Shown: one piece after another, positions 42,695 through 62,078 of the stretch
Position numbering within the stretch: position 1 is the stretch's first letter
Layout: every line of letters starts with the position of its first letter
Assembly (NCBI GenBank): GCA_024698145.1
Contig: JAILRO010000057.1
Span: forward strand, 1 to 64,000
Length of the DNA stretch: 64,000 bases
Reading direction: 5' to 3'
From: Lachnospiraceae bacterium
Lineage (GTDB): Bacteria > Bacillota > Clostridia > Lachnospirales > Lachnospiraceae
The notes under the pieces: generated by a model
Databases searched by the model: none
What the model saw: the letters and a program-made list of their open reading frames with translations, nothing else
Told to the model about the DNA's origin: nothing
Translations under genes and position numbers: made by a program

Positions 42695-43975
42695 CTAGAT
42701 AGCAGCAAATCCTTTCTCAAGGTCTGCAATTATATCATCGATATGCTCTGTTCCGATAGAAAGACGTATGGTATTCTTACCGATTCCCTGATCTGCAAGC
42801 TCCTCATCAGAAAGCTGTGAATGAGTTGTTGACGCAGGGTGAATAACCAAACTCTTAACATCGGCAACATTTGCAAGCAATGAGAATATCTCAAGATTGT
42901 CGATAAACTTCCATGCTTCATCTTGGCCGCCCTTGATTTCGAAAGTAAATATTGATGCTCCGCCATTAGGGAAATACTTCTCATAAAGTGCGTGATCCGG
43001 ATGGTCAGAAAGTGAAGGATGATTAACCTTCTCAACCTTTGGATGATTACTCAAAAACTCAACAACCTTCTTTGTATTCTCTGCATGGCGCTCAAGACGA
43101 AGTGATAATGTCTCAACACCCTGAAGAAGAAGGAATGCATTAAACGGTGAAATAGTTGCTCCTGTATCTCTTAAAAGAATTGCTCTGATGTATGTCACAA
43201 ATGCTGCAGGTCCAACTACATCATAGAAAGATACTCCATGATAGCTTGGGTTAGGTGCTGCAATATTAGGATACTTGCCGCTTGCTTTCCAATCAAACTT
43301 ACCTGCCTCAACGATAATTCCACCAAGTGTTGTACCATGGCCACCGATGAACTTTGTTGCTGAATGAACAACGATATCTGCACCGTGCTCAATTGGTCTT
43401 ATAAGATATGGTGTTCCGAATGTGTTATCTACAACAAGTGGAAGTCCATGCTTGTGTGCAATCTCAGCTATCGCATCAATGTCAGGAATATCACTGTTCG
43501 GATTACCAAGTGTTTCAATGTAGATTGCTCTTGTATTGTCCTTGATTGCCCCTTCAACCTCTGAAAGATTGTGTGCATCAACAAATGTTGTCTCAATACC
43601 ATACTGCGGAAGTGTATGTGCTAACAAATTGTAGCTTCCTCCGTATATAGTCTTCTGTGCAACAATGTGTCCGCCGTTTGCAGCAAGTGCTTCTATAGTA
43701 TATGTAATTGCTGCTGCTCCTGATGCAAGTGCAAGTGCTGCGCTTCCGCCCTCTAATGCTGCAAGTCTCTTTTCAAGCACATCCTGTGTTGAGTTTGTAA
43801 GTCTTCCATAAATGTTACCTGCATCTGCAAGACCAAATCTGTCTGCTGCATGCTTGCTGTTATGGAATACATAAGATGTTGTCTGATAAATAGGAACAGC
43901 TCTTGAATCTGTTGTTGGGTCTGCCTGCTCCTGTCCTACGTGTAACTGTTTTGTTTCAAATCTGTAATCGCTCAT
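42695..43975 (-). CDS. metY: O-acetylhomoserine sulfhydrylase / aminocarboxypropyltransferase
   Basis: RFETKQLHVGQEQADPTTDSRAVPIYQTTSYVF...VVHSATKFIGGHGTTLGGIIVE. Confidence 0.93.
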   Translation of the reverse strand: MSDYRFETKQLHVGQEQADPTTDSRAVPIYQTTSYVFHNSKHAADRFGLADAGNIYGRLTNSTQDVLEKRLAALEGGSAALALASGAAAITYTIEALAANGGHIVAQKTIYGGSYNLLAHTLPQYGIETTFVDAHNLSEVEGAIKDNTRAIYIETLGNPNSDIPDIDAIAEIAHKHGLPLVVDNTFGTPYLIRPIEHGADIVVHSATKFIGGHGTTLGGIIVEAGKFDWKASGKYPNIAAPNPSYHGVSFYDVVGPAAFVTYIRAILLRDTGATISPFNAFLLLQGVETLSLRLERHAENTKKVVEFLSNHPKVEKVNHPSLSDHPDHALYEKYFPNGGASIFTFEIKGGQDEAWKFIDNLEIFSLLANVADVKSLVIHPASTTHSQLSDEELADQGIGKNTIRLSIGTEHIDDIIADLEKGFAAI

Positions 43976-44103: not shown

Positions 44104-44541
44104 TTAATAATCTTCGTCCTCAATCTTTTCCTCAATGTCATTAACAGGTTTCTCAAGACCCTCAATTACAATATTATTCTTCTCTGCATAATCCCAAAGT
44201 GCCGCGTGAATTGCTTCTTCTGCAAGAAGTGAACAGTGAACCTTGATTGGCGGAAGTCCGTCAAGCGCCTCCATAACAGCTTTGTTAGTTACCTTAAGAG
44301 CTTCATTAACACTTTTTCCTTTAACAAGTTCTGTAGCCATTGAGCTTGTTGCAACGGCGGCACCGCAACCAAAAGTTTTAAACTTAACATCCTGTATTAT
44401 TTTGTCATCATCAATGTCTAAATATATTCTCATGATATCGCCGCACTTGGCATTGCCGACTGTACCGACACCGCTTGCGTTATCTATTTCGCCAACGTTT
44501 CTTGGGTTATTAAAATGGTCCATTACTTTTTCGCTATACAT
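44104..44541 (-). CDS. nifU: NifU-like Fe-S scaffold protein
   Basis: MYSEKVMDHFNNPRNVGEIDNASGVGTVGNAKCGDIMRIYL...TFGCGAAVATSSM. Confidence 0.95.
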   Translation of the reverse strand: MYSEKVMDHFNNPRNVGEIDNASGVGTVGNAKCGDIMRIYLDIDDDKIIQDVKFKTFGCGAAVATSSMATELVKGKSVNEALKVTNKAVMEALDGLPPIKVHCSLLAEEAIHAALWDYAEKNNIVIEGLEKPVNDIEEKIEDEDY

Positions 44542-44744: not shown

Positions 44745-45926
44745 TTACGCTTGACGCTTTACAAAGTCTTCGTATAGAGGGGACATTTTGCGGAGACGCT
44801 CGACGATTTTGACAAGTTCGTCTACAACAAAGTCGATATCCTCAAGGGTGGTTTCCTCGGATAGTGTAAGACGAAGTGAGCCATGTGCTATCTCGTGAGG
44901 AAGTCCGATTGCAAGCAATACATGACTCGGATCAAGAGAGCCTGATGTACATGCCGAACCGCTTGAAGCACATACGCCTAACTGATCTAACAGAATAAGT
45001 AACGACTCACCTTCAATGAATCTAAAGCAGAAGTTTGCGTTACCCGGAAGTCTGTCCTCTTTATGTCCGTTAAGTCTTGAATACGGAATCTCTGCAAGAA
45101 CTCGTTCTATCAAGTGATTTCTGAGTTCTTCCTGCTTTGCCTTATTCTTCTCCAAATCCTGTCCTGCAAGTTTTGCAGCTGTACCGATTCCGATAATACC
45201 TGTTGTGTTATGAGTTCCGGCACGTCTGTTTCTCTCCTGTGCTCCACCATGTATGAAAGAACGAATCTTAACACCTTTTCTTATATACATAAGTCCGATT
45301 CCTTTAGGACCACCAAACTTGTGACCACTTGCAGAAAGCATATCTATATTCATCTCATCAACATTTAAAGGAATATGTCCATACGCCTGAACCGCATCTG
45401 TATGGAATAACACTCCATGCTCGTGGGCAATTCTTCCTATCTCAGCAAGAGGCTGAATTGTGCCTATTTCATTGTTTGCTGCCATAATACTGATTAAGAT
45501 AGTATCCTCTCTTATCGCTTTCTCAAGTTCCTCAAGTGAAATCTTTCCATCACTGTCAACATCAAGGTATGTTACTTCAAAGCCCTTCTTTTCAAGATAC
45601 TCGCAAGTATGAAGTATTGCATGATGCTCAATCTTACTTGTTATAATATGCTTTCCCTTATTACCGTAAGCATCTGCTGTTGCCTTAAGCGCCCAGTTAT
45701 CAGATTCGCTTCCACCGGCTGTAAAATACATCTCATCAGCCTTCGCACCGATAAGTTCGGCCACCTGACTTCTGGCAGAATCAACTGCCTTACGAGTCTT
45801 TTGTGCAAATGTGTATATTGCTGATGGGTTGCCATACTCCTCTGTAAAATATGGAAGCATCTCCTTAAGCACTTCATCCTTAACTTTTGTTGTTGCTGCG
45901 TTGTCTAAATAAATTAGTTTACTCAT
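44745..45926 (-). CDS. nifS: Cysteine desulfurase NifS/IscS
   Basis: MSKLIYLDNAATTKVKDEVL...SASGHKFGGPKGIGLMYIRKG...CASSGSACTSGSLDPSHVL. Confidence 0.96.
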   Translation of the reverse strand: MSKLIYLDNAATTKVKDEVLKEMLPYFTEEYGNPSAIYTFAQKTRKAVDSARSQVAELIGAKADEMYFTAGGSESDNWALKATADAYGNKGKHIITSKIEHHAILHTCEYLEKKGFEVTYLDVDSDGKISLEELEKAIREDTILISIMAANNEIGTIQPLAEIGRIAHEHGVLFHTDAVQAYGHIPLNVDEMNIDMLSASGHKFGGPKGIGLMYIRKGVKIRSFIHGGAQERNRRAGTHNTTGIIGIGTAAKLAGQDLEKNKAKQEELRNHLIERVLAEIPYSRLNGHKEDRLPGNANFCFRFIEGESLLILLDQLGVCASSGSACTSGSLDPSHVLLAIGLPHEIAHGSLRLTLSEETTLEDIDFVVDELVKIVERLRKMSPLYEDFVKRQA

Positions 45927-47853: not shown

Positions 47854-48210
47854 TCAAAACAACTTCTGTACCTGAAGGTATTTGACCAAACGACTGATTG
47901 ATTCTTCTATCATGCCAGAGTTTTCATATACCTTTATACCTATACTCTCTGCCACACTTGCCGCTCCGATTCCAATTCTGCTAACAAGCATATATTTACA
48001 ATCACCAAACGTGAGCAAGTTTTCCTTCAATCTGTCACTATCATGATTACCGCCTTCACATACAGGAATAACGTTTCTTTGTTCCAACAGACTCACTTTA
48101 TCGCCATCAGACACCTCATACACATAGAATTTTGATGCTCTGCCGAAATGACTATTAACTACAATTCCATCGCTTGAAGCTACCGCTATCAAATACTTCT
48201 CATTATCCAT
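47854..48210 (-). CDS. NifX/NifB-C-terminal-type dinitrogenase cofactor-binding protein
   Basis: IAVASSDGIVVNSHFGRASKFYVYEV; overlaps nifB by 8 bp. Confidence 0.9.
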   Translation of the reverse strand: MDNEKYLIAVASSDGIVVNSHFGRASKFYVYEVSDGDKVSLLEQRNVIPVCEGGNHDSDRLKENLLTFGDCKYMLVSRIGIGAASVAESIGIKVYENSGMIEESISRLVKYLQVQKLF

Positions 48211-49075
48211 GCGAAAACGTCTCCTTTACCTGTAGTCTTCTCTGATATATTTGATCACCATACTCCGACTTCCCCGGAACTCCAACTGCATCAGCTCTAC
48301 AATGCTGACAGTGTCTAAATACATCGATATACTTAGATGCCACTGTTCTTGCAGCATCAATCTCCAAACATCCGGGCGCCTTATAGTCCTTTAATTCATG
48401 CTGCGGAATCAAAGGAATAATGTTATATATCTTTGCTCCTGCCTCTTTTACAGTTTTTGCAATTTCTTCAATATGTTCGCCGTTAATTTCCGGAACAAGT
48501 ACCGTATTAACCTTAACTGTTATCCCCGCCAAAGCTATTTTTTTAATTCCCTCTAACTGGTTACGAATTAATATTTCTGCGCCCTCTACCCCTTCAATTT
48601 TTACACCGTGATAAATGATATATGAATTTAACTGTGCCTCTATTTGTGGGTCCACCGCATTAACTGTTACTGTTAATGAATCAATTCCCGCCTGTATTAC
48701 CTCTTCTGCCTTTTCATTTAAAAGCAAACCATTGGTACTCATACATTTAATTAAATCCGGGAATTCTTTCTTAATAATCTGAAATGTCTTTAATGCATTA
48801 TCAGATGCCAACGTATCGCCCGGGCCGGCGATTCCTGCCACCTTAATATCGGGGCATATAGATAATGCTTTTTGCAAAATATCCACACATTCCTCAGGTT
48901 TTAGTACCTTTGATGTCACTCCAGGTCTTTCTTCCACATCATTGATTGTTCGATCACAAAACTTGCATGCTATATTACATCCCGGGCTAACCGGCAAATG
49001 TATTCTTCCTGCATTATTTTTGTGGTCTCCAAAACATGGATGTGAATTCTGTAACCGCTCATATGTATTACTCAT
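48203..49075 (-). CDS. nifB: NifB-like radical SAM protein
   Basis: HPCFGDHKNNAGRIHLPVSPGCNIACKFCDRTIN...AGIAGPGDTLA...CQHCRADAVGVPG. Confidence 0.94.
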   Translation of the reverse strand: MSNTYERLQNSHPCFGDHKNNAGRIHLPVSPGCNIACKFCDRTINDVEERPGVTSKVLKPEECVDILQKALSICPDIKVAGIAGPGDTLASDNALKTFQIIKKEFPDLIKCMSTNGLLLNEKAEEVIQAGIDSLTVTVNAVDPQIEAQLNSYIIYHGVKIEGVEGAEILIRNQLEGIKKIALAGITVKVNTVLVPEINGEHIEEIAKTVKEAGAKIYNIIPLIPQHELKDYKAPGCLEIDAARTVASKYIDVFRHCQHCRADAVGVPGKSEYGDQIYQRRLQVKETFSHG

Positions 49076-49251: not shown

Positions 49252-49902
49252 TCAACTTAACTTTAACATTTCATATACTCGTGTTCCGTAATTGAGTACT
49301 TGTTCATCATGTGTAGCAACAACTACAGTTGCACCCTTTTCCACACGTTCTTTGAGGCACTCCATAACAATTTGTGTTGTCTCCTTATCAAGTCCTCCTG
49401 ACGGTTCATCTAATAAATACAGTTGTGGTTGCCTGAGCAACAGCCTTGCAATTGACGCTCGCCTTAGTTCCCCTCCGGACAATTCAAACGGACGTCTGTT
49501 GGCAAGTTCTTTAATATCAAGTCTCTCCATTATTTCCAATGCCTCTTCTTTTTTTCTTTCATTTTCGAAAAGAAGAAACGGTAATAGGACATTTTCTAAA
49601 ATAGTATAGTCTGACAACAGTACATTACTTTGAGGAAGATAGCCAATCTTATCAGAATGAAGTCTTAATAATTCATTTTCACTTATAGTCTGATAATTCT
49701 TTTCGTTATAAATAACACTTCCCTCATCCGGTGTAAGATAACCTCCCATCAATGCCAAAAGAGTACTTTTCCCACTACCCGATTTGCCGGATAGCACGAG
49801 AAGATTCTGTTCTTTTACATCAAGCCAAACATTTTTTATTACATCAAAAACTCTGTTTCCTCTACTGTAAGTTTTTGTTACATCTTCAATTTGAAGGATC
49901 AT
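49252..49902 (-). CDS. ABC transporter ATP-binding protein (LolD/MacB type)
   Basis: MILQIEDVTKTYSRGNRV; GKSGSGKSTLLALMGG; LSGGELRRASIARLLLRQPQLYLLDEPSGGLD. Confidence 0.92.
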   Translation of the reverse strand: MILQIEDVTKTYSRGNRVFDVIKNVWLDVKEQNLLVLSGKSGSGKSTLLALMGGYLTPDEGSVIYNEKNYQTISENELLRLHSDKIGYLPQSNVLLSDYTILENVLLPFLLFENERKKEEALEIMERLDIKELANRRPFELSGGELRRASIARLLLRQPQLYLLDEPSGGLDKETTQIVMECLKERVEKGATVVVATHDEQVLNYGTRVYEMLKLS

Positions 49903-49904
49903 TT

Positions 49905-51101
49905 TCACTCCTCCTCGCGTAAAACCGTATAAGCATCCTGTTTGCCAATTTGTCTTATAGGTACTATTGCAGATACTATACCTGAAATTTCCAAAGCCAA
50001 AAATCCTGTGAGCAACAGTATTACAACCTCTTTTGCTCCCGGAGTTATATATGCTATTCCCAAACAATATGTAAGATATCTTCCAAAAGGAAATACAATC
50101 AAAAACGTCAACAAGACTCCAAGAATATAACCGATTGTAGTAATCAATAACATCTGTTTAACCAAAACAAGACTAAGTTGCCTTTTCCCAACGCCTTGTA
50201 TTCGCAACAGCGCATATTCTTTTTTTCTCGAATTGGAATACAAATAGCAGACAATAACCAAAATGACTTCTGCCACTATCCAAATTACAAGCAAGAACAA
50301 TTTGATACTTGATACAAGATATTTAGTATTTTTAGAAAACGACTTAAACATCTTCCCCGGGAAAACCACATCTATCTTATCGGCATTTTCCAAAATCAAA
50401 TCTTTAATAACCAGGTGTTCGTCCACACCACTTTTGACTTTAATAAACACGGATGAAATCGTATTTTCATCCCTTTGAGCCGGCAAAAAATCCACACCCT
50501 TCTTTTGGGCATTTTCAATTATTTCCGGCATTGTATCCATTGGAAAATATACAGAAGTATCCAAACTTGTTCCTGTCTCAGCGAGCGTAGAAACGACCTC
50601 ATACTTCTTTCCAAAAATCTTAACAGTATGATCCTTCTCTAAAAGTATCCTGCTTCCGGCTACCGCTTTTCCGGCAACAATTTTGTTTCTATCTTTGCTT
50701 TTTACCCAAGGTGTTATTACAAAATCTGTCTCCGGAGAAAAACCTACTATCTGGACCTGACTGGTACAACAATCCGCCGAAAGGCTTGTCAAATAGAACT
50801 GCTCCGTTACTGCCTCAATCCCTTCAACGTCCTGCAAACCATCCAATACCATTCTGTCAAAATAAAAGCATTCTCTTGTCCCTTCCAAAAGAATGCTTTC
50901 TGCTTTTTCTTCACACTCAGACGGAACAATCATTATATCTGCACCTAATCGTTTTTCAAATCCGAGCATCCCGTTTTGAAGCATAAGGAGAAAATATGTG
51001 CCACCAATAATAACAAATGCCAGTATTGTAGTAACACCTAATAAAAATAAACTTATATGTTTTCTCCTAAAAATGCTTGTCATCAAGAAGTGATTATTCA
51101 C
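49905..51101 (-). CDS. FtsX/MacB-type ABC permease
   Basis: Four-TM FtsX-like topology; LGADIMIVPSECEEKAE...RKKEYALLRIQGVGKRQL. Confidence 0.85.
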   Translation of the reverse strand: MNNHFLMTSIFRRKHISLFLLGVTTILAFVIIGGTYFLLMLQNGMLGFEKRLGADIMIVPSECEEKAESILLEGTRECFYFDRMVLDGLQDVEGIEAVTEQFYLTSLSADCCTSQVQIVGFSPETDFVITPWVKSKDRNKIVAGKAVAGSRILLEKDHTVKIFGKKYEVVSTLAETGTSLDTSVYFPMDTMPEIIENAQKKGVDFLPAQRDENTISSVFIKVKSGVDEHLVIKDLILENADKIDVVFPGKMFKSFSKNTKYLVSSIKLFLLVIWIVAEVILVIVCYLYSNSRKKEYALLRIQGVGKRQLSLVLVKQMLLITTIGYILGVLLTFLIVFPFGRYLTYCLGIAYITPGAKEVVILLLTGFLALEISGIVSAIVPIRQIGKQDAYTVLREEE

Positions 51102-51496
51102 TAATTATCACTCTCCACTTTTTTTCTTGTTGCAAGAACAATCAAAATTACATCTACAACAATTATAATAATTCCCAAAACCACCAAGAACGGACGTGTT
51201 GCCATACGGCATCTCATCATATCATTTCCGCAAACACCAATCCATCCAAGCGGAGCTGCTGCAATCAAAGCTCCAATACCGACAACGGATATGTAAAGTC
51301 CAAGTCTAACTTTTTCTTCAAAGAAAAACGCAACAACTCCTATAAGTATCAATAAAATTCCCAATCCTATTTCTGCTTTTTTGGTGTATGTACAAGCCAT
51401 AACTTCTTTACAAACCGGGAAAATAACTGTCGGTCCTAAAATTGTCAATATTCCCAATACTATAAAACTAATAGTTGCTGCTAATTTATTTTTCAT
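51101..51496 (-). CDS. DUF4418 family membrane protein
   Basis: GPTVIFPVCKEVMACTYTKKAEIGLG...MMRCRMATRPFLVVLGI. Confidence 0.85.
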   Translation of the reverse strand: MKNKLAATISFIVLGILTILGPTVIFPVCKEVMACTYTKKAEIGLGILLILIGVVAFFFEEKVRLGLYISVVGIGALIAAAPLGWIGVCGNDMMRCRMATRPFLVVLGIIIIVVDVILIVLATRKKVESDN

Positions 51497-51535
51497 CTTT
51501 TATTCCTCCTAATCAAAACTAGTATAAGATTTTAG

Positions 51536-52441
51536 TTATAATTCTTTATATTTTTTCAACTCCTCCACATACAACTCGCCGATATCACTTAATTTGTGAT
51601 TTTTACGCAATATATAACCGATAGTTAACGGATCTTCCTCTTTAAGCTTTATTGCAGTGACGCCTTCTTTTAATGCAATACTGTCTGTCATGATTCCAGT
51701 ACCGATAGAATAGCCGTTAAGCGCAGCCATTATTTCAGCTGTAGTAGCCCTGTCATTTGATTTAATCAACTTTTGATAATCATAATTCTCCAGCGCTTCT
51801 TCTGAAAGATAAAAATCACTTTCACTATTCTGGTCAAAAGATACGCACGGATATTCCTGCAAATCATCTAAAGAAATTTCCTTATTGCCTGCTAATGGAT
51901 GTTCTTTCCACAAATATGCAAATGTTTCTCTAACCATCAATGGGAAAAACTCAAGCTGATATTCTCTAAACAGCTTTTTTAAGACGTTTTCATTGTTTTT
52001 CGAGTATGCGAGTATTCCTATTTCACTTCTCATCTCTTTGACATCCAAAAGCACTTCATCTGTACGGGTTTCCTTAACAGAGTACACATATTTGTTATTA
52101 TCAAACTCTTTAACAGTCTTTAAAAAAGCATGTACCGCAAATACATAATGCTGCATCGACACAGAAAAATGTTTCTTTTCCTTATCCTTACCCAAAAACC
52201 TGTCCTCAATCAACTCATATTGACCGACAGCTTGTTTAGCATAAGCCAAAAACTCATATCCCGCTTCCGTTAGTGATATTCCTCTGTTATTGCGTTCAAA
52301 TATCTTTACACCGATTTCATCCTCAAGTTCTCTTACTGCAGAGGAAAGAGCAGGCTGGGAAATATATAACTTATTTCCCGCCTCTCTCATAGAAGATGAA
52401 CCTGCTATTGTAATTACATATTTTAATTGTAAAATTGTCAT
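51536..52441 (-). CDS. LysR family transcriptional regulator
   Basis: MTILQLKYVITIAGSSSMREAGNKLYISQPALSSAVRELEDEIGVKIFERNNRGISLTEAG. Confidence 0.94.
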   Translation of the reverse strand: MTILQLKYVITIAGSSSMREAGNKLYISQPALSSAVRELEDEIGVKIFERNNRGISLTEAGYEFLAYAKQAVGQYELIEDRFLGKDKEKKHFSVSMQHYVFAVHAFLKTVKEFDNNKYVYSVKETRTDEVLLDVKEMRSEIGILAYSKNNENVLKKLFREYQLEFFPLMVRETFAYLWKEHPLAGNKEISLDDLQEYPCVSFDQNSESDFYLSEEALENYDYQKLIKSNDRATTAEIMAALNGYSIGTGIMTDSIALKEGVTAIKLKEEDPLTIGYILRKNHKLSDIGELYVEELKKYKEL

Positions 52442-52463: not shown

Positions 52464-53537
52464 TTATTTTGTATTGGTTTCCTTATACTCTTCATAAAGA
52501 GCCTTGTATATCTCATCATCAGGATTTTCTTCTATAATCTGCTCTATAGCATCCTTAAAGATTGTTGAATCTACATTCTGAGCAACATCTGCATTACCAT
52601 CTACATAACCTAAAAGCTTCATAGAATTGTAGAAATCGATAATCTTATCCTTTGCAGGGTTCGGATCAAGTGTTAAATGACCGTACTCAAAAAGCTGATT
52701 GCGAATTACTTCCTCATCAATTTCCATGTACTCCTTCATATATTTAACGCTGCTGTCCTGATCTGTATTAAGAAGGTGATATGCCTTAATGATTGCGCGT
52801 GTAAATGCTACATAATCATCTCTGTTTTCCTCTAACTTCTCAGGTGTTGTTGTCAAACGGCAGCAAATGAACTCCTCAAGGTCATCAATGTGTGTTACTC
52901 TGTTTAATCCCTGCTCTTCTGCAGTCAAACGGAAAGTAAGATAAATCAATCCAAGATCGATTTCTCCCTTACGGATTGCCTCAATAATAGTTGGGATTGA
53001 ATCCAACTCAACCCATTCAATCTTTGTATAATCGATATCATTTTTCTGAAGCCAATCAACGAAACCGAAAAGTCCGCTTGTTCCTCTTGTTACACCAATC
53101 TTCTTTCCTGCAAGACTTTCATTATTAAGTTCTTTAAACTCGTCTGCTCGCTCAGGAAGAGAATATATACCTGCACCATTTCCCATCGCACCTGCAAACA
53201 TCACTAACTTGTCTCCATGGTCAATAAGTTCAAGTGGCTGTGGTGCACCACCGGAAGTAATATCAAGCTTACCTGTCAAAAGAGGCTCATAAGCATTTGA
53301 TGCTGTAGGTGTCAAATTGACATCAAGACCTTCCTCTTCAAAATATCCCGCATACTTTGCAATAACAGTAAGTGCGGAAGAAACCATATTATTTCCTGCT
53401 GTTACCTCTAACTTCTTTAATTCTTTCTTATCACTTGTCTTGCTTGTATCCTTTGAAGAACCACAAGCAACAAGTCCAAGTACAAGTGCAAATGACAAAA
53501 CAAGTGCGAAAATCTTTTTAATATTTTTTAATTTCAT
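52464..53537 (-). CDS. NitT/TauT/SsuA-type ABC substrate-binding lipoprotein
   Basis: Lipobox LVACGSS; YAGYFEEEGLDVNLTPTASNAYEPLLTGKLDITSGGA. Confidence 0.9.
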   Translation of the reverse strand: MKLKNIKKIFALVLSFALVLGLVACGSSKDTSKTSDKKELKKLEVTAGNNMVSSALTVIAKYAGYFEEEGLDVNLTPTASNAYEPLLTGKLDITSGGAPQPLELIDHGDKLVMFAGAMGNGAGIYSLPERADEFKELNNESLAGKKIGVTRGTSGLFGFVDWLQKNDIDYTKIEWVELDSIPTIIEAIRKGEIDLGLIYLTFRLTAEEQGLNRVTHIDDLEEFICCRLTTTPEKLEENRDDYVAFTRAIIKAYHLLNTDQDSSVKYMKEYMEIDEEVIRNQLFEYGHLTLDPNPAKDKIIDFYNSMKLLGYVDGNADVAQNVDSTIFKDAIEQIIEENPDDEIYKALYEEYKETNTK

Positions 53538-53555: not shown

Positions 53556-54455
53556 TTATTTCCATTTTACAAGTTTCTTACTTACCCAACCGATTCCCTT
53601 GTTAATTACTGTTACAACGATACCAATCATGATGATACCGGACACAACACGTGTATAATCCGAGAAGTCGGAATAGTATTTTACAAACCATCCAAGACCG
53701 GATGTTGAACCAAGCATTTCTGCTCCTGTTAATACCATAAATGAAGCTCCTACTGACAATGTCACACCATGTATAATTCCCGGAACACTATAGGGAAGTA
53801 AAATGTTCACGAGCAAGGTCCATGAACTTACATTTAGTGTACGTGCGGAATCCAAAAGCTTTTTATCAATACTTCCTACGCTCAAAACCGTATTTATAAA
53901 TGTTGGCCAAAAAATTGCACAAGCAACAACAAATACTCTGGCTACATCAAACGAAGGAAGCAAGGCTACCGCATATGGCATATAAATTATAGGTGGAATC
54001 GGACTTATAACCTGTGCAATTGGATAAACCGCTTTTTTAAGCCTGTCAAACCATCCCACCAAAAGTCCCAAGCCAACTCCAAGTATTAACGCTATCAGAA
54101 AGCCAAGGAATAATAGATACAAGGAACTAAATATTCCTTCAATAACTTTGTGTGCGTCGGTAACAAAAACATTAAAGACGCGTTCCGGTACCGGATAAAG
54201 CATTGTATTGTTAGTTTCAAACTTTGTAGTAACGAACTCCCACACGAGCAAAAACAGAAACAAAACTGTTCCGATATCTCGACTCGATTGCTTCTTAATC
54301 TTCACAAGAAGATTTATCTCTAATGCAATCACGACAATCAAGAACACATATCGGTTTTCAATCTCGACTTTTGCCGGCAAAAATATTGATATGACCAAAA
54401 GTACAAAGAACAAGTTGGGAAGAATGTAAGATAATGTTTCTCTGAGTTTTTTCAT
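53556..54455 (-). CDS. NitT/TauT/SsuC-type ABC permease
   Basis: Multi-[50 protein letters not shown]. Confidence 0.92.
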
Positions 54456-55255
54456 ATAATTCCTCCCTCATCACCGATTTTTTCACTTACATTGCTGTAG
54501 AATAGCATCATTACTTTATGATGTAATTCTCTGTAAGTATCCGTACCGAATATATCCTGTCGTCTTCGTGGTCTTTCAAGATTAACCTCGATTTCTTCTT
54601 TGATTTTTTTGTTATCCATAAACAGTATTCGGTCAGATAATAAAATTGCCTCATCAATGTCATGTGTAACCATAACAATCGTTTTTTTCTGATCCTGGTC
54701 TTCTAATAGTTCTAATAGCATATCCTGTAAATCAGCACGATTTTTTGCATCAACAGCACCAAAAGGCTCATCCATTAGCATAATCTCCGGTCCCATTGCA
54801 AGCGTTCTTGCAATAGCAACCCTCTGCTGCATACCACCTGAAAGTTGAAACGGATATTTGTTCTCAAATCCTTCAAGCCCTACAGCTTCTAGAAATTCCT
54901 CTGCTTTTTTGTTGTACTCTTTTTTTGACAGATCTCCGTTAACCTGTTTGATTCCAAAGCTAACGTTCTTCTTTGCTGTCATCCAAGGAAAAAGCGAGTA
55001 ATGTTGGAATACAACTCCTCTGTTTTTTCCTGTACCGACTGATTCTTCACCATCTATGTATATCTTTCCTTGTGTTGGCTGTCGTAAACCGGATAAAATA
55101 CTTAACGTCGTACTTTTACCGCATCCACTGGAACCAATTATGCTGATGAATTCTCCTTCCTTTACAGAAAAATTCACATCTTCAAGAGCACTATATCTTT
55201 CATTTCCCTCGTCATTGTACTCCAGATAAACGTTTTCCAATTTTATTTTATCCAT
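54452..55255 (-). CDS. NitT/TauT/SsuB-type ABC ATP-binding protein
   Basis: [52 protein letters not shown]. Confidence 0.94.
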
Positions 55256-55377: not shown

Positions 55378-56901
55378 TTATTTTCCTTCTTTTATATAGC
55401 TGTATGGATCTTTATCGAACCATTCTTTTTTGTATGGTAATTTAATCTTTTTCGATAACTTTTTACTAAATGCATGGTTTTCTAATTGAAAGGCTAAGTT
55501 CCTTACAAAAGCATATTCACCTATATAACCCAAGAACGGTCTTCCAGGTCCGAACAAGCAGATTGACGGATAACCCGTTTTTGCAATCCAACCGTGTTTT
55601 CCGGGATGTTCAACAATAATATCCGGGTCGGTTTTCTTTAACTGGTTTACCAATTCAAATAACTGGGTACTAACTGCTAACGGAACATCAGGTAGTTCCT
55701 CCCCCAATTCTTCATAAACAGATTCAGCGCCATTATCATAATGGTAAGCACGTACACCTATTACATCCATGCCAAGCTCTCTTAACATTCTTGCTTCCTC
55801 GGCAACACGTACAACACCGCCACCAAGAAGAACACGCTTACCTTGCAATTTCGGAAGGAACTCTTCCAATGCGGCATCAAGTCTCTTTTCTTCGTAATCA
55901 CATATTCTCTCGGCCATCTCCTCTTTGCCGAAAAATGATGCAATTGAAACTAACCATTTCCTGATTCCTGCTTTACCAAGCGGCATACCTTGAATTATGT
56001 ATGGGATGCCGTATTTTTCTTCAAGATATTTAAGAATATAGTCGTCATGAACATTACACATGCTGACATTAAGTGCTGCTTCGGATATGAATCTCATCTT
56101 ATCCCTTGAGCTATACTCCGCAAATATCTGAACATTTAAATCCAATGCATTTAACAACCTTACAATCTCAGCTTCATCATCAGGATTGATTGAAGTTGCA
56201 TTAAATAAATTGACAGTTCTTCCCTTGTTATACTGATAATTAACAAGTCCACCACGATTATACGGATTGGCAAAATCATCCGGATTGTAATCAACGTAAG
56301 GTTCGGGTTCAAACTGTATATGTTTGATTAATGAATGATAAAAGGAATCATATGCTGATGCTACGACTCTTGACTTAAAGCCCGGACAATGGATGTAGGT
56401 TATATCTGCCGCTATATTTTCTGACTCGCTTTTCACAACCTCGCCTACATCATCACCGATAATACTTGGCGCACAAGTTACAACGACAAATATTATTTCC
56501 GGTCTAAACTCCTTATCAGCATATCGTATTGTTTCTCTTAAAGATTTTTCTCCTCCGCCGATAATGTCTTGCTTCTTCATATTGGTAGAAAGCCATACTA
56601 CAGAATTGTTATCCAAGCCACGCTTGAGTTTTCCGGAATCTGTGTTACTTGCAAGAGTTGACATCTGCACTCCACAACCAATTGGTGCATGAAGAATAAT
56701 TACAGAATTCTCTACAGTTGCTGCCATCATCAAAGACAAAGACATCTGACATGCATTAGCCTGCCAAAAGCTACGGTCTTTCTTAAACATACAGCCTTCC
56801 TTTGCACAGTTTACAAAATCACATCCACATCCGCTATAACTATCAACAATAGAAAGTCTCGTATCACGCACAGGTGGATCCTGTTGCTCATATATGCTCA
56901 T
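55378..56901 (-). CDS. NifD-like nitrogenase component 1 subunit (second pair)
   Basis: P-cluster-type Cys: ANACQM, HAPIGCG, VTCAPSIIGDD; cofactor Cys in MCNVHDDYILKYLEEKYGIPYI. Confidence 0.9.
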   Translation of the reverse strand: MSIYEQQDPPVRDTRLSIVDSYSGCGCDFVNCAKEGCMFKKDRSFWQANACQMSLSLMMAATVENSVIILHAPIGCGVQMSTLASNTDSGKLKRGLDNNSVVWLSTNMKKQDIIGGGEKSLRETIRYADKEFRPEIIFVVVTCAPSIIGDDVGEVVKSESENIAADITYIHCPGFKSRVVASAYDSFYHSLIKHIQFEPEPYVDYNPDDFANPYNRGGLVNYQYNKGRTVNLFNATSINPDDEAEIVRLLNALDLNVQIFAEYSSRDKMRFISEAALNVSMCNVHDDYILKYLEEKYGIPYIIQGMPLGKAGIRKWLVSIASFFGKEEMAERICDYEEKRLDAALEEFLPKLQGKRVLLGGGVVRVAEEARMLRELGMDVIGVRAYHYDNGAESVYEELGEELPDVPLAVSTQLFELVNQLKKTDPDIIVEHPGKHGWIAKTGYPSICLFGPGRPFLGYIGEYAFVRNLAFQLENHAFSKKLSKKIKLPYKKEWFDKDPYSYIKEGK

Positions 56902-56912
56902 TTACGTTCCTC

Positions 56913-58286
56913 CTATCTGCCTGCCACCAAGCTGCTAAAAATATCTTCAAACAAATGAAGTCCGCCGCGATATCCGGCATATCCTCTATCTAAGACAACT
57001 CTGTTGTACACCGGATAACTTACATACAAGCCTCCGCTTGCACTTTTCTGAATGAAACTCTTCTCAAACGTACTACCTAATACATACACAGGTGTGTGAG
57101 TATTTTGATAAAATGAACCATTTGAACGAACCATAGTTTCAGTCATTTTTCTTTGTATCTGAGTTGCATGAGGCTCAAAAATCAGCTGTCCTCCAAGTTT
57201 CTTTTGGGCAAACGCCTCTTCAATACCGGGTATATCTCTCTTCTTTAACGCCTCACTTATAAAGATATTTTCCGGAATCCAGCCAAGTTCCTTTTCCAAA
57301 AACTCAGCATACGGTAGTGCCGTTGAAGAATTAGATACAACATGATAGTAAAACTTAAACTCACTGTCACAAATCAAATCTGCAAGTCTCTCTACATAGG
57401 AATAGTAATTCTTATTTTCCTCATTGATAACTTTATTAACCACCTTCTTCTCGACATCCAGTCTGGATGCAACAAGCTTCAGAAACTCATCAGTCTGTTC
57501 AGCTCCTACCGGAATATCTGTAATCAGATAAGGCGTTTTATGCTTTTTCTCAAACTCCTTTGCAAGTTTTACGCCATGTGTTCTGGATAAAACAATATTC
57601 AAAGCAGCTTTCGGTGCAGATTTAATATTCTGAAATGTCTGATCTGCTGTAAAAAATGTATTGACCTTTAATCCAAGTTTTTCAAGCAATCGTTTTATTT
57701 CCTCTAAATCACCCCTGAAAAAAGGATCCAAAAGCGGCACAACACCGAAAATATTGACTAGTGTCGGATCCTTTTTTTTCACCGGTTTTAAGTAATTATT
57801 AAAAATCCCGTCTAAAACCAGATCATATCCAACATATGCATCACCCTCAAAACTCGGTGTATTTACATAAAGAATAGGTTTACCTTCGTCCTCAAACTCT
57901 TTAACTACCGAATAGAGATCATCGGCAATTATCTCCGTCATACATCCGGTTGTTACTACAAAAAGGTCTCCCTCCAACAGTTCGAAGGTACTCTCAATTT
58001 CCTCTTTTAATCGATTTCCACCACCGAAAATAACCTGAAACTCTCCGATATTACTAACCGGTACATTCTGTCCGCTACAATAACTCGAACCACAATACCC
58101 GGAATTAAATGCTGTTGCATTACTTAAGTTACCGGCGCATCCGGAGGCAGTATGTGAAATAGGTATTACTCCCGGCATAGAACTAAGTACTGCAAGAGCT
58201 CCACCCAGAGAACATGTTGTTCTTGGTTTTTCTATATATGATGACATTTTATTCTCTCCTTTACTCCAAGCATTTACTTTGTTCAA
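56913..58286 (-). CDS. NifK-like nitrogenase component 1 subunit (second pair)
   Basis: RTTCSLGGALAVLSSMPGVIPISHTASGCAG; VVTTGCMTEIIADDL. Confidence 0.9.
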   Translation of the reverse strand: MNKVNAWSKGENKMSSYIEKPRTTCSLGGALAVLSSMPGVIPISHTASGCAGNLSNATAFNSGYCGSSYCSGQNVPVSNIGEFQVIFGGGNRLKEEIESTFELLEGDLFVVTTGCMTEIIADDLYSVVKEFEDEGKPILYVNTPSFEGDAYVGYDLVLDGIFNNYLKPVKKKDPTLVNIFGVVPLLDPFFRGDLEEIKRLLEKLGLKVNTFFTADQTFQNIKSAPKAALNIVLSRTHGVKLAKEFEKKHKTPYLITDIPVGAEQTDEFLKLVASRLDVEKKVVNKVINEENKNYYSYVERLADLICDSEFKFYYHVVSNSSTALPYAEFLEKELGWIPENIFISEALKKRDIPGIEEAFAQKKLGGQLIFEPHATQIQRKMTETMVRSNGSFYQNTHTPVYVLGSTFEKSFIQKSASGGLYVSYPVYNRVVLDRGYAGYRGGLHLFEDIFSSLVAGR

Positions 58287-59221
58287 TATTGATATAGCTC
58301 TGTAGATAGATATCTCTCACCGGTATCAGGAAGCAAGGCAACAATATTCTTTCCCGCATTTTCCGGTCTTTTTGCAATTTGCGTTGCTGCAAATGCTGCA
58401 GCTCCCGATGAAATACCTACCAGTAATCCTTCTTTCCTTCCCAGCTCTCTGGAAGTATCTATTGCTTCATCATTTCTAACCCTATATATTTCATCTATTA
58501 CATTCGCTTGAAATACGTTAGGTACAAATCCTGCTCCTATACCTTGTATTTTATGAGGCCCTGCATTTCCACCGGATAGCACAGGCGATGAAAACGGTTC
58601 AACGGCAATAACCTGAATGTTTTCATTAAATGCCTTTAGTGCCGCACCAACACCTGATACAGTACCTCCCGTTCCTGCACCGGCCACAAAAATATCTATA
58701 GCCCCTTCAGTATCCTCTATAATTTCCTTCGCAGTGGTCTCTTTGTGCGTTTGAGGATTAGCAGGATTATTAAACTGTTGCAATATGATACTGTTTGGAA
58801 TTACGCTGTTTAAAGCTTCCGCTTTCTGAATAGCACCTTTCATTCCGTCTTTTCCGGGAGTAAGGATAATCTGCGCTCCGAGAGCTCTTACAAGTGTTCT
58901 TCTCTCAACCGTCATCGTATCAGGCATGACAATGATTACCTTATATCCTCTTGATGCAGCAACAAATGATATTCCCACACCTGTGTTTCCGCTCGTGGGT
59001 TCTATAATTGTTGCACCCGGCTTTAACTTACCACTTTTTTCCGCATCTATAATCATTCCGTATGCGATTCTATCCTTGACACTTCCGGCAGGATTAAAGT
59101 ATTCCAATTTTAAATACAAATCTGATTTCAAACCCTTTCCCTCTGCATATCGACTACATTTCAGAAGAGGGGTATTTCCAATCAAGTCAGTCAGACTTTC
59201 AGCCGCCTTTACCATATTCAA
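58283..59221 (-). CDS. cysK: Cysteine synthase (O-acetylserine sulfhydrylase)
   Basis: LTDLIGNTPLLKCSRY...EYFNPAGSVKDRIAYGMI...IEPTSGNTGVGISFVAASRGYK...GAGTGGTVSGVG. Confidence 0.95.
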   Translation of the reverse strand: MNMVKAAESLTDLIGNTPLLKCSRYAEGKGLKSDLYLKLEYFNPAGSVKDRIAYGMIIDAEKSGKLKPGATIIEPTSGNTGVGISFVAASRGYKVIIVMPDTMTVERRTLVRALGAQIILTPGKDGMKGAIQKAEALNSVIPNSIILQQFNNPANPQTHKETTAKEIIEDTEGAIDIFVAGAGTGGTVSGVGAALKAFNENIQVIAVEPFSSPVLSGGNAGPHKIQGIGAGFVPNVFQANVIDEIYRVRNDEAIDTSRELGRKEGLLVGISSGAAAFAATQIAKRPENAGKNIVALLPDTGERYLSTELYQY

Positions 59222-59245: not shown

Positions 59246-60598
59246 TTAAATAGATGTTCTTCCACCTTCCAAAAGACGTGTATAGAAATCTACAAAGAAA
59301 TCAACGCCACCCGTATATCCAAAATAGCTCTTTCTTCCTATAAGTCCCGGTCCAATCGGCACGGATATCGGGAAAAATGTTGCATTTAAATCTCGCGCTA
59401 AAACCTCATCCCAAGTAGAACCTAAAATCACCTCACCCGGTGTTTCCTCCTGTAATAATTCTGCTGCAGGAAGACCACCATCATCAGTGAATACAAGTTC
59501 AAAATCTTTATCCTCTAATTCGAGATCATACAATGCATTTCTTACTGCTTCTTCATGTTTTTCAGGAACATTTTCCACAATGTAAACTTTTTTAGGAACA
59601 AAGCCCAAATCATTAACCATAAAACGAACCGTCGAAACTGCAGCTGCTGCACTACCAATCAAACTAAATGTTTTAGGAAGATTAATTCCCTCATTGATAG
59701 ATGCCAACTGTCTTGAAATATAGTAGTAATATTCCTCTTCCCCATCTCTGATATAATCTTCCACAAACTCTTTATCCAAATCAGCAAACTCTGCAATTGC
59801 ACGAATTAATTTTGTTGTTTCTGTCGGACCACTTGGTACATGATCAAAATGTAAAAACGGAGTCTGATATTTCTTCTCAAGTTTCTTGACAATATCGAGA
59901 TCCAGCCATGGTGATAACAAGAGATTCCATTCTGCCTGAGGTATTTTCTTTACCTCTTCAATTCCTTTATTTCTTCCGTAAATGATATTTGGTTTAAACC
60001 CTAGATCCTTCAAAAGCTTTTCTATTCCGACTAATGTTCCCTGCCATGTTGCATCATAAAATGGAACTATACCCCAAACATTAACTTGCTTTTCAACCTT
60101 TTCTACAGGACCATCCAAAAATTGATCTATTATCGCTTTTAAAACCTGGCTGTGACCGTACAAGTTGTTGCCTTTAAAGCCCGGAAGTGTTGCATATATT
60201 ACCGGAACATCACTTCCTTCAAAGCTCTCTGCAACTTCTTTTATATCATCACCTACAATCTCAGCAGTACAACCATCTACTGCAACAATAAGATCCGTTT
60301 TATAATATTTCATAGAAGATGCTATAACCTTACGAAAACGCTCTGACCCGCCAAAAATAACATCAGCTTCCGAAAAATCCGTACATGGTATAATAGTCTC
60401 CTGATAAGGATATGCATTTTGACCACCATTTAATTTTGCAAGTACTGTACCCGATTGTAATTGGCATCCGGGACCTGAATGTAATACTGGCAGTACATTG
60501 TTGATTGCCAATGCAGTGTAGATTCCTCCCAAAGCACAACCAACTCTCTGTTGCTCAGAACCACAATTTTGTTTTCTGTTTTCTTCTTTATTCGACAT
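59246..60598 (-). CDS. NifK-like nitrogenase component 1 subunit (first pair)
   Basis: RVGCALGGIYTALAINNVLPVLHSGPGCQ; VDGCTAEIVGDDI. Confidence 0.9.
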   Translation of the reverse strand: MSNKEENRKQNCGSEQQRVGCALGGIYTALAINNVLPVLHSGPGCQLQSGTVLAKLNGGQNAYPYQETIIPCTDFSEADVIFGGSERFRKVIASSMKYYKTDLIVAVDGCTAEIVGDDIKEVAESFEGSDVPVIYATLPGFKGNNLYGHSQVLKAIIDQFLDGPVEKVEKQVNVWGIVPFYDATWQGTLVGIEKLLKDLGFKPNIIYGRNKGIEEVKKIPQAEWNLLLSPWLDLDIVKKLEKKYQTPFLHFDHVPSGPTETTKLIRAIAEFADLDKEFVEDYIRDGEEEYYYYISRQLASINEGINLPKTFSLIGSAAAAVSTVRFMVNDLGFVPKKVYIVENVPEKHEEAVRNALYDLELEDKDFELVFTDDGGLPAAELLQEETPGEVILGSTWDEVLARDLNATFFPISVPIGPGLIGRKSYFGYTGGVDFFVDFYTRLLEGGRTSI

Positions 60599-62078
60599 CT
60601 TCTTTTCCTCCTTGCAAGAAATGAAGCTGCTTTAACTGCTCGTATTCTTCGGTAAACGGAGATTTGAAATTCTTACCCAGCTTCGTTACAAAGTTTTTAT
60701 TTTTTAATTCTTCTACTATACGCTCTCCAAACTCAACCAATGCACGATATCCTACTAAGTTCAAAGAAGCACTTCCCGTCACTGCAGGGATTCCTATCTT
60801 CATTGACCACGGTGCAGTTTCATGAACTCGTGAGATGACAACGTCAGGTTTTTCCAGATTTCTCATTGTTAGTAAAGTCTCCATCTGCTGACTGTCATTT
60901 ACGCTGGTCGAAACATTTTCTAATCCTGATTCTATGGCATCTACTGCAGCAGCAACTCTTTCATCAGTAATATTATCAAGTCTTGGATCATAGTGATATG
61001 CAACTGTATGTATTACTCCAAGACCGAGTTCTCCTGCAATTCTTGTATATTCATATGCAAATGTCGCACCCAACGCTATAAATACTTTCTTGCCTTTCAA
61101 CTGTTCTCGTACACGTTCCAACCTATCAGCGTACTTTTCTCTCTCTTCACGAATGATTTCTTCTACCTCATCCTGCTTACCCAAATATTCTCCAACCTCT
61201 CTGAAAAATCGTTCAAAACCAATTCCTCCATATGGGAAATGAGATTGGAAATACTTCACGCCAAAGCGCTTTTCTAGCGCACCGCAAAGGTAGCTTGACT
61301 GTGCACCACACTGTCCAAAAGAAGCAACTGCTTTCGAAGCTCTTTCATAATCTTCTGTTTTTGCTCTTGCGGTTAAGAAATTCATTTTGTAGCCTAATCG
61401 TTCAAAGAACCCTTCAATATACTCCTTGCCTAACGGCGAAAAACCAACATAGTTGATGATATTCTCTCTTTCGTCAGAATCCTTCAAAATTGTTCTTGCT
61501 ACTGCATGACTGTAATCATCATATCCGGATGCCCAAATTTTTGATTTAATTCCCTCTGAAGCGGCAAATCCGATTGGTATTCCAAGTTCCTCTTGCATTT
61601 CCTCTACAACGCTATTGGCATCTTCACCAATTATTGCCGAAACACAACTTGTGACAACATATATCTGAGATGGATGGTATCTGTCGTATGCCTTACGAAT
61701 TGTTTTTCTAAGCTTTGCAAGTCCGCCAAATACCGTATCTGATTCCTTAATATCAGTTGACATTATTCTAAAGTTTCTTCCACGTTCTCCAATCATCTTA
61801 CTGACATTAAGATTGAAAATCCTGTTGAAACAAACTTGTCCGGCAGAACATCCCACCGGTGCATGGTCAATAATTACTGCATCATCAACAGCCGCCAACT
61901 GTCCCAACGCCTCATAATGACTACATTGACTAACGGTGGTAAAACAGCGTTTCTTGTTTTTTAAGCAGCCCTCACAGCCTTTTCTTGTCATGTCTCCGAT
62001 TGTTCCAAAATATCCGGTTATTGAACCCAATCGACGTTCTTTAATCTCACATCCCGGCGTGTTTAAATTAACTGCCAT
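60588..62078 (-). CDS. NifD-like nitrogenase component 1 subunit (first pair)
   Basis: VSQCSHYEALGQ...HAPVGCS; VVTSCVSAIIGED; cofactor Cys in FGQCGAQSSYLCGALEKRFGVKYF. Confidence 0.9.
   Translation of the reverse strand: MAVNLNTPGCEIKERRLGSITGYFGTIGDMTRKGCEGCLKNKKRCFTTVSQCSHYEALGQLAAVDDAVIIDHAPVGCSAGQVCFNRIFNLNVSKMIGERGRNFRIMSTDIKESDTVFGGLAKLRKTIRKAYDRYHPSQIYVVTSCVSAIIGEDANSVVEEMQEELGIPIGFAASEGIKSKIWASGYDDYSHAVARTILKDSDERENIINYVGFSPLGKEYIEGFFERLGYKMNFLTARAKTEDYERASKAVASFGQCGAQSSYLCGALEKRFGVKYFQSHFPYGGIGFERFFREVGEYLGKQDEVEEIIREEREKYADRLERVREQLKGKKVFIALGATFAYEYTRIAGELGLGVIHTVAYHYDPRLDNITDERVAAAVDAIESGLENVSTSVNDSQQMETLLTMRNLEKPDVVISRVHETAPWSMKIGIPAVTGSASLNLVGYRALVEFGERIVEELKNKNFVTKLGKNFKSPFTEEYEQLKQLHFLQGGKEDVE

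Follow-up and report, generated by a model that had tools for sequence, protein, structure and literature searches.

Which residues hold the metal cluster of a NifD-like protein that lacks the cofactor ligand His442, and what chemistry would such a protein perform? These questions are raised by D1, a NifD/MarD-like catalytic subunit of 507 residues encoded on the minus strand at positions 55378–56901 of the window, the 64,000-nucleotide stretch of Lachnospiraceae DNA analyzed here. The open reading frame is intact, with 507 codons running from an ATG start at 56901 to 55378. A preliminary description of this DNA had recognized a NifD-like subunit and proposed that a Cys at the His442 position serves as an unusual cofactor ligand. 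The family relationship is borne out by our analysis, which points to a different residue as the second ligand.

D1 belongs to the group IV nitrogenase-like proteins

D1 matches the Pfam nitrogenase component 1 family (Oxidored_nitro, PF00148) with an E-value of 6.2e-69. Its best match in a phmmer search of the PDB is MarD from the methylthio-alkane reductase (MAR) of R. rubrum (9fmg/9d9u; E-value 1.3e-49, 172 bits), with the next match at 4.7e-26, and a profile search pairs D1 with MarD at 454 bits, followed by a match of 245. The AlphaFold model of D1, for which 45 window and locus sequences served as input, has a pLDDT of 90.8 and a pTM of 0.90. Foldseek comparison of this model with the PDB returns 9fmg_A first (TM 0.83/0.89, 2.8 Å); NifD chains reach query-normalized TM values of 0.65–0.74.

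The three P-cluster cysteines of MarD (PDB 9FMG, 9D9U) are retained in D1 as Cys51 (codon 56749–56751, minus strand; MarD Cys66), Cys76 (56674–56676, minus strand; MarD Cys91), and Cys143 (56473–56475, minus strand; MarD Cys158). The neighboring NifK/MarK-like partner, K1 (56913–58286, minus strand), contributes Cys25, Cys50, and Cys115, so that all six P-cluster positions of the pair are occupied and invariant in the conservation alignment. D1 and MarD also have in common their fold, a Cys/His ligand pair, and dedicated NifH and NifB partners, but they are only 29% identical. Mo-nitrogenase NifD shares the PF00148 domain, the P-cluster cysteines, and Cys275 with D1; it differs at 23% identity, in the His442 and Gln191/His195 that D1 lacks, and in its association with NifEN and NifV, neither of which is found in the host genome.

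D1K1 is a PF00148 D and K pair with a dedicated NifH that lies outside the NifD/NifE clade, the features that define group IV nitrogenase-like proteins. A 2012 survey by Dos Santos described a Cys275-positive, His442-negative nitrogenase-like group commonly encoded near cysteine synthase or O-acetylhomoserine (OAH) sulfhydrylase, and read that neighborhood as pointing to sulfur metabolism (PMC3464626). These group IV sequences resemble D1 in gross features: their Cys275 equivalent, missing His442, P-cluster cysteines, and cysteine synthase neighbors. The survey predates any resolution of two finer features described below, the Loop I His and the D1-clade motif, neither of which it identified. 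A literature search on the D1 clade by name found nothing specific to it; Heliophilum NflDK2-4 may be members. Relatives recovered in a plasmid search for D1 are all below 60% identity.

An IQ-TREE phylogeny of 69 D proteins places D1 in a clade of 34 rows (support 100/99) drawn from Bacillota, Synergistota, and Spirochaetota. The clade containing R. rubrum MarD (support 100/100) leaves the D1 clade outside. D1 is likewise apart from NifD, NifE, and the Isr-like proteins, and from a third clade whose members carry His442. Because the tree contains long branches, we make no claim about the branching order of the deep D clades. The label Nfa-like, which we give to the third clade, rests on its ligand pattern.

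Candidate cluster ligands of D1

MarD binds its Fe8S9C cluster through Cys270 and His429 (PMC12552129). His429 lies on an extended Loop I rather than in the His442 loop, which is why earlier sequence analysis missed it (PMC12552129). When 70 D-type sequences are aligned with MAFFT, Cys282 of D1 pairs with MarD Cys270 and His432 with MarD His429. The HMMER profile alignment gives the same pairings, as does an hhalign comparison of the D1 clade with MarD-like loci (100% probability), in which Arg-His is invariant on the MarD-like side. Both residues are invariant in 35 of 35 D1-clade relatives: Cys282 (codon 56056–56058, minus strand), equivalent to the cluster Fe1 ligand MarD Cys270/NifD Cys275, and His432 (codon 55606–55608, minus strand), equivalent to the Fe8 ligand in Loop I of MarD. 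The positions flanking His432 vary freely among the 35 members, with eight different letters at residue 431 and nine at residue 433. The Cys282-equivalent Cys is invariant in all D-type groups examined except the Isr-like proteins. By alignment to the solved relative MarD, the metal-holding His of D1 is therefore most likely His432, in the loop neighboring the one where NifD carries His442.

The segments on which the preliminary description was based are all present in D1: CNVHDDYILKYLEEKYG (residues 282–298), ICLFGPGRPFLG (residues 447–458), and CPGFKSRVVASAYDSFYH (residues 172–189). Its assignment of a conserved Cys275 equivalent corresponds to Cys282. Its second ligand, by contrast, was Cys448 (codon 55558–55560, minus strand), placed at the His442 position by an ungapped alignment, and His432 was not mentioned. 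We consider a ligand role for Cys448 very improbable. In the profile–profile alignment of D1 with NifD, the NifD His falls in a two-residue insertion that has no D1 counterpart, and Cys448 stands opposite a Gln two residues before it. Since the Nfa-like clade, of the same length as D1, has His in the 442 column, the column assignment is arguable, and relative to that clade, or without gaps, Cys448 would indeed occupy the 442 position. Conservation decides the matter: of the 35 D1-clade relatives, 2 have Cys in this column, 23 have Gln, 7 Pro, 2 Asn, and 1 His, and a residue so rarely kept cannot be the ligand of the family, whereas His432, aligned with a structurally proven ligand, is kept in every member. 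We rejected Cys448 on these grounds.

The active-site pocket and a clade-specific motif

The pocket of D1 is altered relative to both NifD and MarD. Val180 and Tyr184 replace NifD Gln191 and His195, in agreement with the preliminary description. Relative to MarD, His194/Trp195 become Val179/Val180, Phe199 becomes Tyr184, and Cys73/Gln74 become Met58/Met59. MarD His375 is kept as His387 in 32 of 35 members of the clade. Arg428, which adjoins His429 and has been proposed as a hallmark of MarD, corresponds to a one-residue deletion in the D1 clade in all three alignments. The D1 clade has in turn a motif of its own that begins with the Cys ligand, C-x-x-H-D-D-Y at residues 282–288 (CNVHDDY in D1), of which His285, Asp286, and Asp287 are near-invariant (at least 33 of 34). 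His285 was not found in the other D groups compared.

Genomic context of D1K1

All genes given with coordinates in this section lie on the minus strand. K1 overlaps by 4 bp with cysK (58283–59221), a cysteine synthase A scoring over the TIGR01139 cut-off at 439.7 bits, and beyond it lie a second NifK-like subunit, K2 (59246–60598), and a second NifD-like subunit, D2 (60588–62078). Neighbors in the D2-K2-cysK-K1-D1 array overlap or are at most 25 bp apart. The array is followed by an ABC transporter comprising an ATPase of the nitrate/sulfonate/taurine family (54452–55255), an SsuC/TauC/SaoP-like permease (53556–54455), and a substrate-binding protein of the NMT1/SsuA family (52464–53537), and then by a LysR-type regulator (51536–52441). 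The binding protein scores 51.8 bits against the SsuA family, for which the cut-off is 163.5, so the transporter does not name a substrate.

Beyond the transporter, a stretch that includes two Rrf2 regulators encodes a NifB radical SAM core with HPC, CxxxCxxC, ERP, AGPG, and CxxCRxDA motifs (48203–49075), a NifX/Nitro_FeMo-Co domain protein that is a candidate cluster carrier (47854–48210), the only full NifH-type Fe protein of the genome (46942–47790), a NifS cysteine desulfurase (44745–45926; over the TIGR03402 cut-off), a clostridial NifU-type scaffold (44104–44541; over the TIGR03419 cut-off), and an OAH sulfhydrylase (42695–43975; over the TIGR01326 cut-off). Their motifs mark NifB and NifH as intact. 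NifB is split, with its radical SAM core and NifX/Nitro_FeMo-Co domain encoded by separate, overlapping genes (47854–49075).

The association with cysK is conserved. Of the 26 relatives whose upstream DNA extends far enough, 23 have cysK immediately upstream of K1 (exceptions L036, L055, and L064), and the cysK-K1-D1 cassette spans Bacillota, Synergistota, and Spirochaetota. Genes for a sulfonate-type permease and ATPase usually lie nearby, and NifH and NifB are often in the same cluster. In termite spirochetes, too, group IV nifKD has been reported together with a cysteine synthase, in a 2026 paper (PMC13067680). Clostridium sp. LS and [Clostridium] fimetarium DSM 9179 are cultured carriers of D1.

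The window genome (G000, 99.85% complete) encodes four PF00148 proteins in total, D2, K2, K1, and D1, all within the window. None of the four exceeds the NifD, NifE, or NifN cut-offs in profile searches, no protein of the genome exceeds the NifV cut-off (best 148 bits, against 462.9), and no other nitrogenase was found in it. The siroheme sulfite/nitrite reductase domain PF01077 was not found in this 99.85% complete genome either. Among nine other D1-bearing genomes, PF01077 is absent from five (G165, G116, G207, G146, and G251) and present in four (G099, G024, G250, and G252).

Proposed function of D1K1

We propose that D1K1 is probably an ATP-driven Fe8S9C-cluster reductase that cleaves the C–S bond of an imported organosulfur compound and feeds CysK, and, jointly with this mechanism, that D1 is its catalytic α subunit and the pair a nitrogenase-like reductase of group IV, akin to MAR but outside the MAR clade. 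The genes and their motifs, the conserved ligands, the cassette, and the fold are observed directly; the cluster, the C–S chemistry, and the product are extrapolated from them. In favor of this reading are the sequence and fold match to MarD, the invariant cluster and P-cluster ligands, the intact NifB and NifH, the lack of NifEN-class and NifV matches over cut-off, the cysK cassette with its transporter, and the PatB-family C–S lyases that adjoin the cassette in L035 and L040. By analogy with MarDK, D1K1 would carry a P-cluster and an Fe8S9C cluster, receive electrons by ATP-gated delivery, and perform reductive C–S cleavage. The adjacent sulfonate-type ABC transporter would take up the organosulfur compound. 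The NifH-type Fe protein would pass electrons, driven by ATP, to the P-cluster common to D1 (Cys51, Cys76, and Cys143) and K1, from where they would move onward to the [Fe8S9C] cluster, a NifB product coordinated by Cys282 and His432, at which the imported compound would be reductively cleaved at its C–S bond. The sulfide or thiol set free would be captured by CysK of the same cassette; we infer this handover from the presence of cysK and the missing sulfite reductase. Given that PF01077 is absent from the window genome and from five of the nine others, a sulfide- or thiol-level product is likelier than sulfite, at least in the window genome. Elsewhere in the clade sulfite may be the product, since four of the nine genomes carry PF01077. 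The changed residues near S2B (MarD His194 and Trp195) and the missing Arg428 count against reading D1K1 as a C–S reductase.

That D1K1 is instead a true methylthio-alkane reductase, releasing methanethiol and a hydrocarbon, is unlikely, even though MarD is the best sequence and fold match of D1 and has the same ligands, H and B genes are present, and an OAH sulfhydrylase is encoded 11 kb away. D1 falls outside the R. rubrum MarD clade at a split supported 100/100 and lacks both Arg428 and Trp195. Its fixed partner is cysK rather than OAH sulfhydrylase, and the other pair of the genome, D2K2, is nearer to MarD.

The presence of two pairs in one operon with a single H and B suggests another role, in which D1K1 would act as a scaffold like NifEN and mature the cluster of D2K2; a role of this sort has been put forward for some clusters of four nitrogenase-like genes (PMC3464626). 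We regard this as decidedly improbable. G116 (99% complete), G207 (100%), and G258 each encode exactly two PF00148 proteins, which in G116 and G207 sit at the D1-K1 locus; with this pair alone in those two genomes, D1K1 probably works alone, as an enzyme rather than a scaffold, and a scaffold-only role was rejected. Together with the six P-cluster cysteines, the lone pairs make a free-standing reductase the better reading. The top fold similarity of D1 is, moreover, to an active reductase, and MarDK itself is proposed to need the NifB product only.

Equally improbable is a sulfonate reductase that releases sulfite, like the isethionate reductase IsrHDK. IsrD of Rhodobacter capsulatus is, like D1, a nitrogenase-like protein linked to a sulfonate-type transporter and to sulfur assimilation, and the transporter that adjoins D1 is of the kind essential for Isr function (PMC11423573). 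IsrD is, however, defined by a single P-cluster Cys and the absence of Cys275 (PMC11423573), whereas D1 has the two further P-cluster cysteines and the Cys275 equivalent, Cys282. The Isr-like proteins form a separate clade, and the host lacks the sulfite reductase. Ligand pattern and tree together led us to reject Isr membership. The substrate may nevertheless be a sulfonate, if its reduction is carried through to sulfide.

That D1 is a divergent enzyme for N2 reduction like those of the Nfa type (group IV-A), which use NifB and dispense with NifEN (PMC9147875), is scarcely credible, because Nfa proteins carry all N2-reduction ligands including His442, and D1 has no His in the 442 column, has Val and Tyr for Gln191 and His195, is separate from the His442-bearing clade, and sits in a cassette built around cysK. 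As the preliminary description had argued, N2 reduction is very unlikely; the ligands and the absence of NifEN and NifV lead us to reject a nitrogenase identity for D1.

The D1 clade remains a set of uncharacterized sulfur enzymes of the group IV nitrogenase-like type that neighbor MAR, have a pocket of their own, and are of a kind already recognized. We suggest, more tentatively, that it could represent an Fe8S9C enzyme with a non-MAR substrate, direct sulfide release from the imported organosulfur compound, and a clade-specific active-site motif, Cys-x-x-His-Asp-Asp, working alongside a MAR-like enzyme encoded in the same operon. If the function proposed here is right, gut and termite-gut anaerobes would use nitrogenase-type complex clusters to scavenge sulfur, and would do so with more than one enzyme. 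Ligation by the Loop I His would then hold generally on this side of the family and would bear on the evolution of Fe8S9C enzymes before N2 fixation. A missing His442 does not mean a missing His ligand, which corrects a natural misreading, and the cultured carriers make the substrate question testable.

Accessory genes and other D-type subunits

A PatB-family C–S lyase adjoins the cysK-K1-D1 cassette in L035 (6403–7614) and L040 (11551–12717), and another lies near the cassette in L075 (2735–3919). A DUF4418 protein, an FtsX-type permease, and an FtsE-type ATPase recur beside D1 clusters (49252–52441 in the window; L074, L075, and L036), accompanied in most cases by LysR regulators; the set is possibly a linked exporter.

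The third, Nfa-like D clade (L012–L015, L017–L021, L073, and L076) lacks the Loop I His and has His in the NifD-442 column. In L073 and L076 an Nfa-like pair has a MarD-like pair next to it and a single NifH and a single NifB, so that these clusters, too, contain two pairs. Isr-like D subunits occur in other genomes of the D1 host's family (L024, L026, and L028); in these, Asp and Pro replace P-cluster cysteines and Asn replaces Cys275.

D2 groups within the broader clade around MarD and has retained Trp195. Its Loop I reads Arg-Val-His, and D2 and the subunits in L035 (3550–5022), L030, and L032 all carry Arg-(Val/Ala)-His where MarD has Arg428-His429, so that each of the four has its candidate ligand His displaced by one position.
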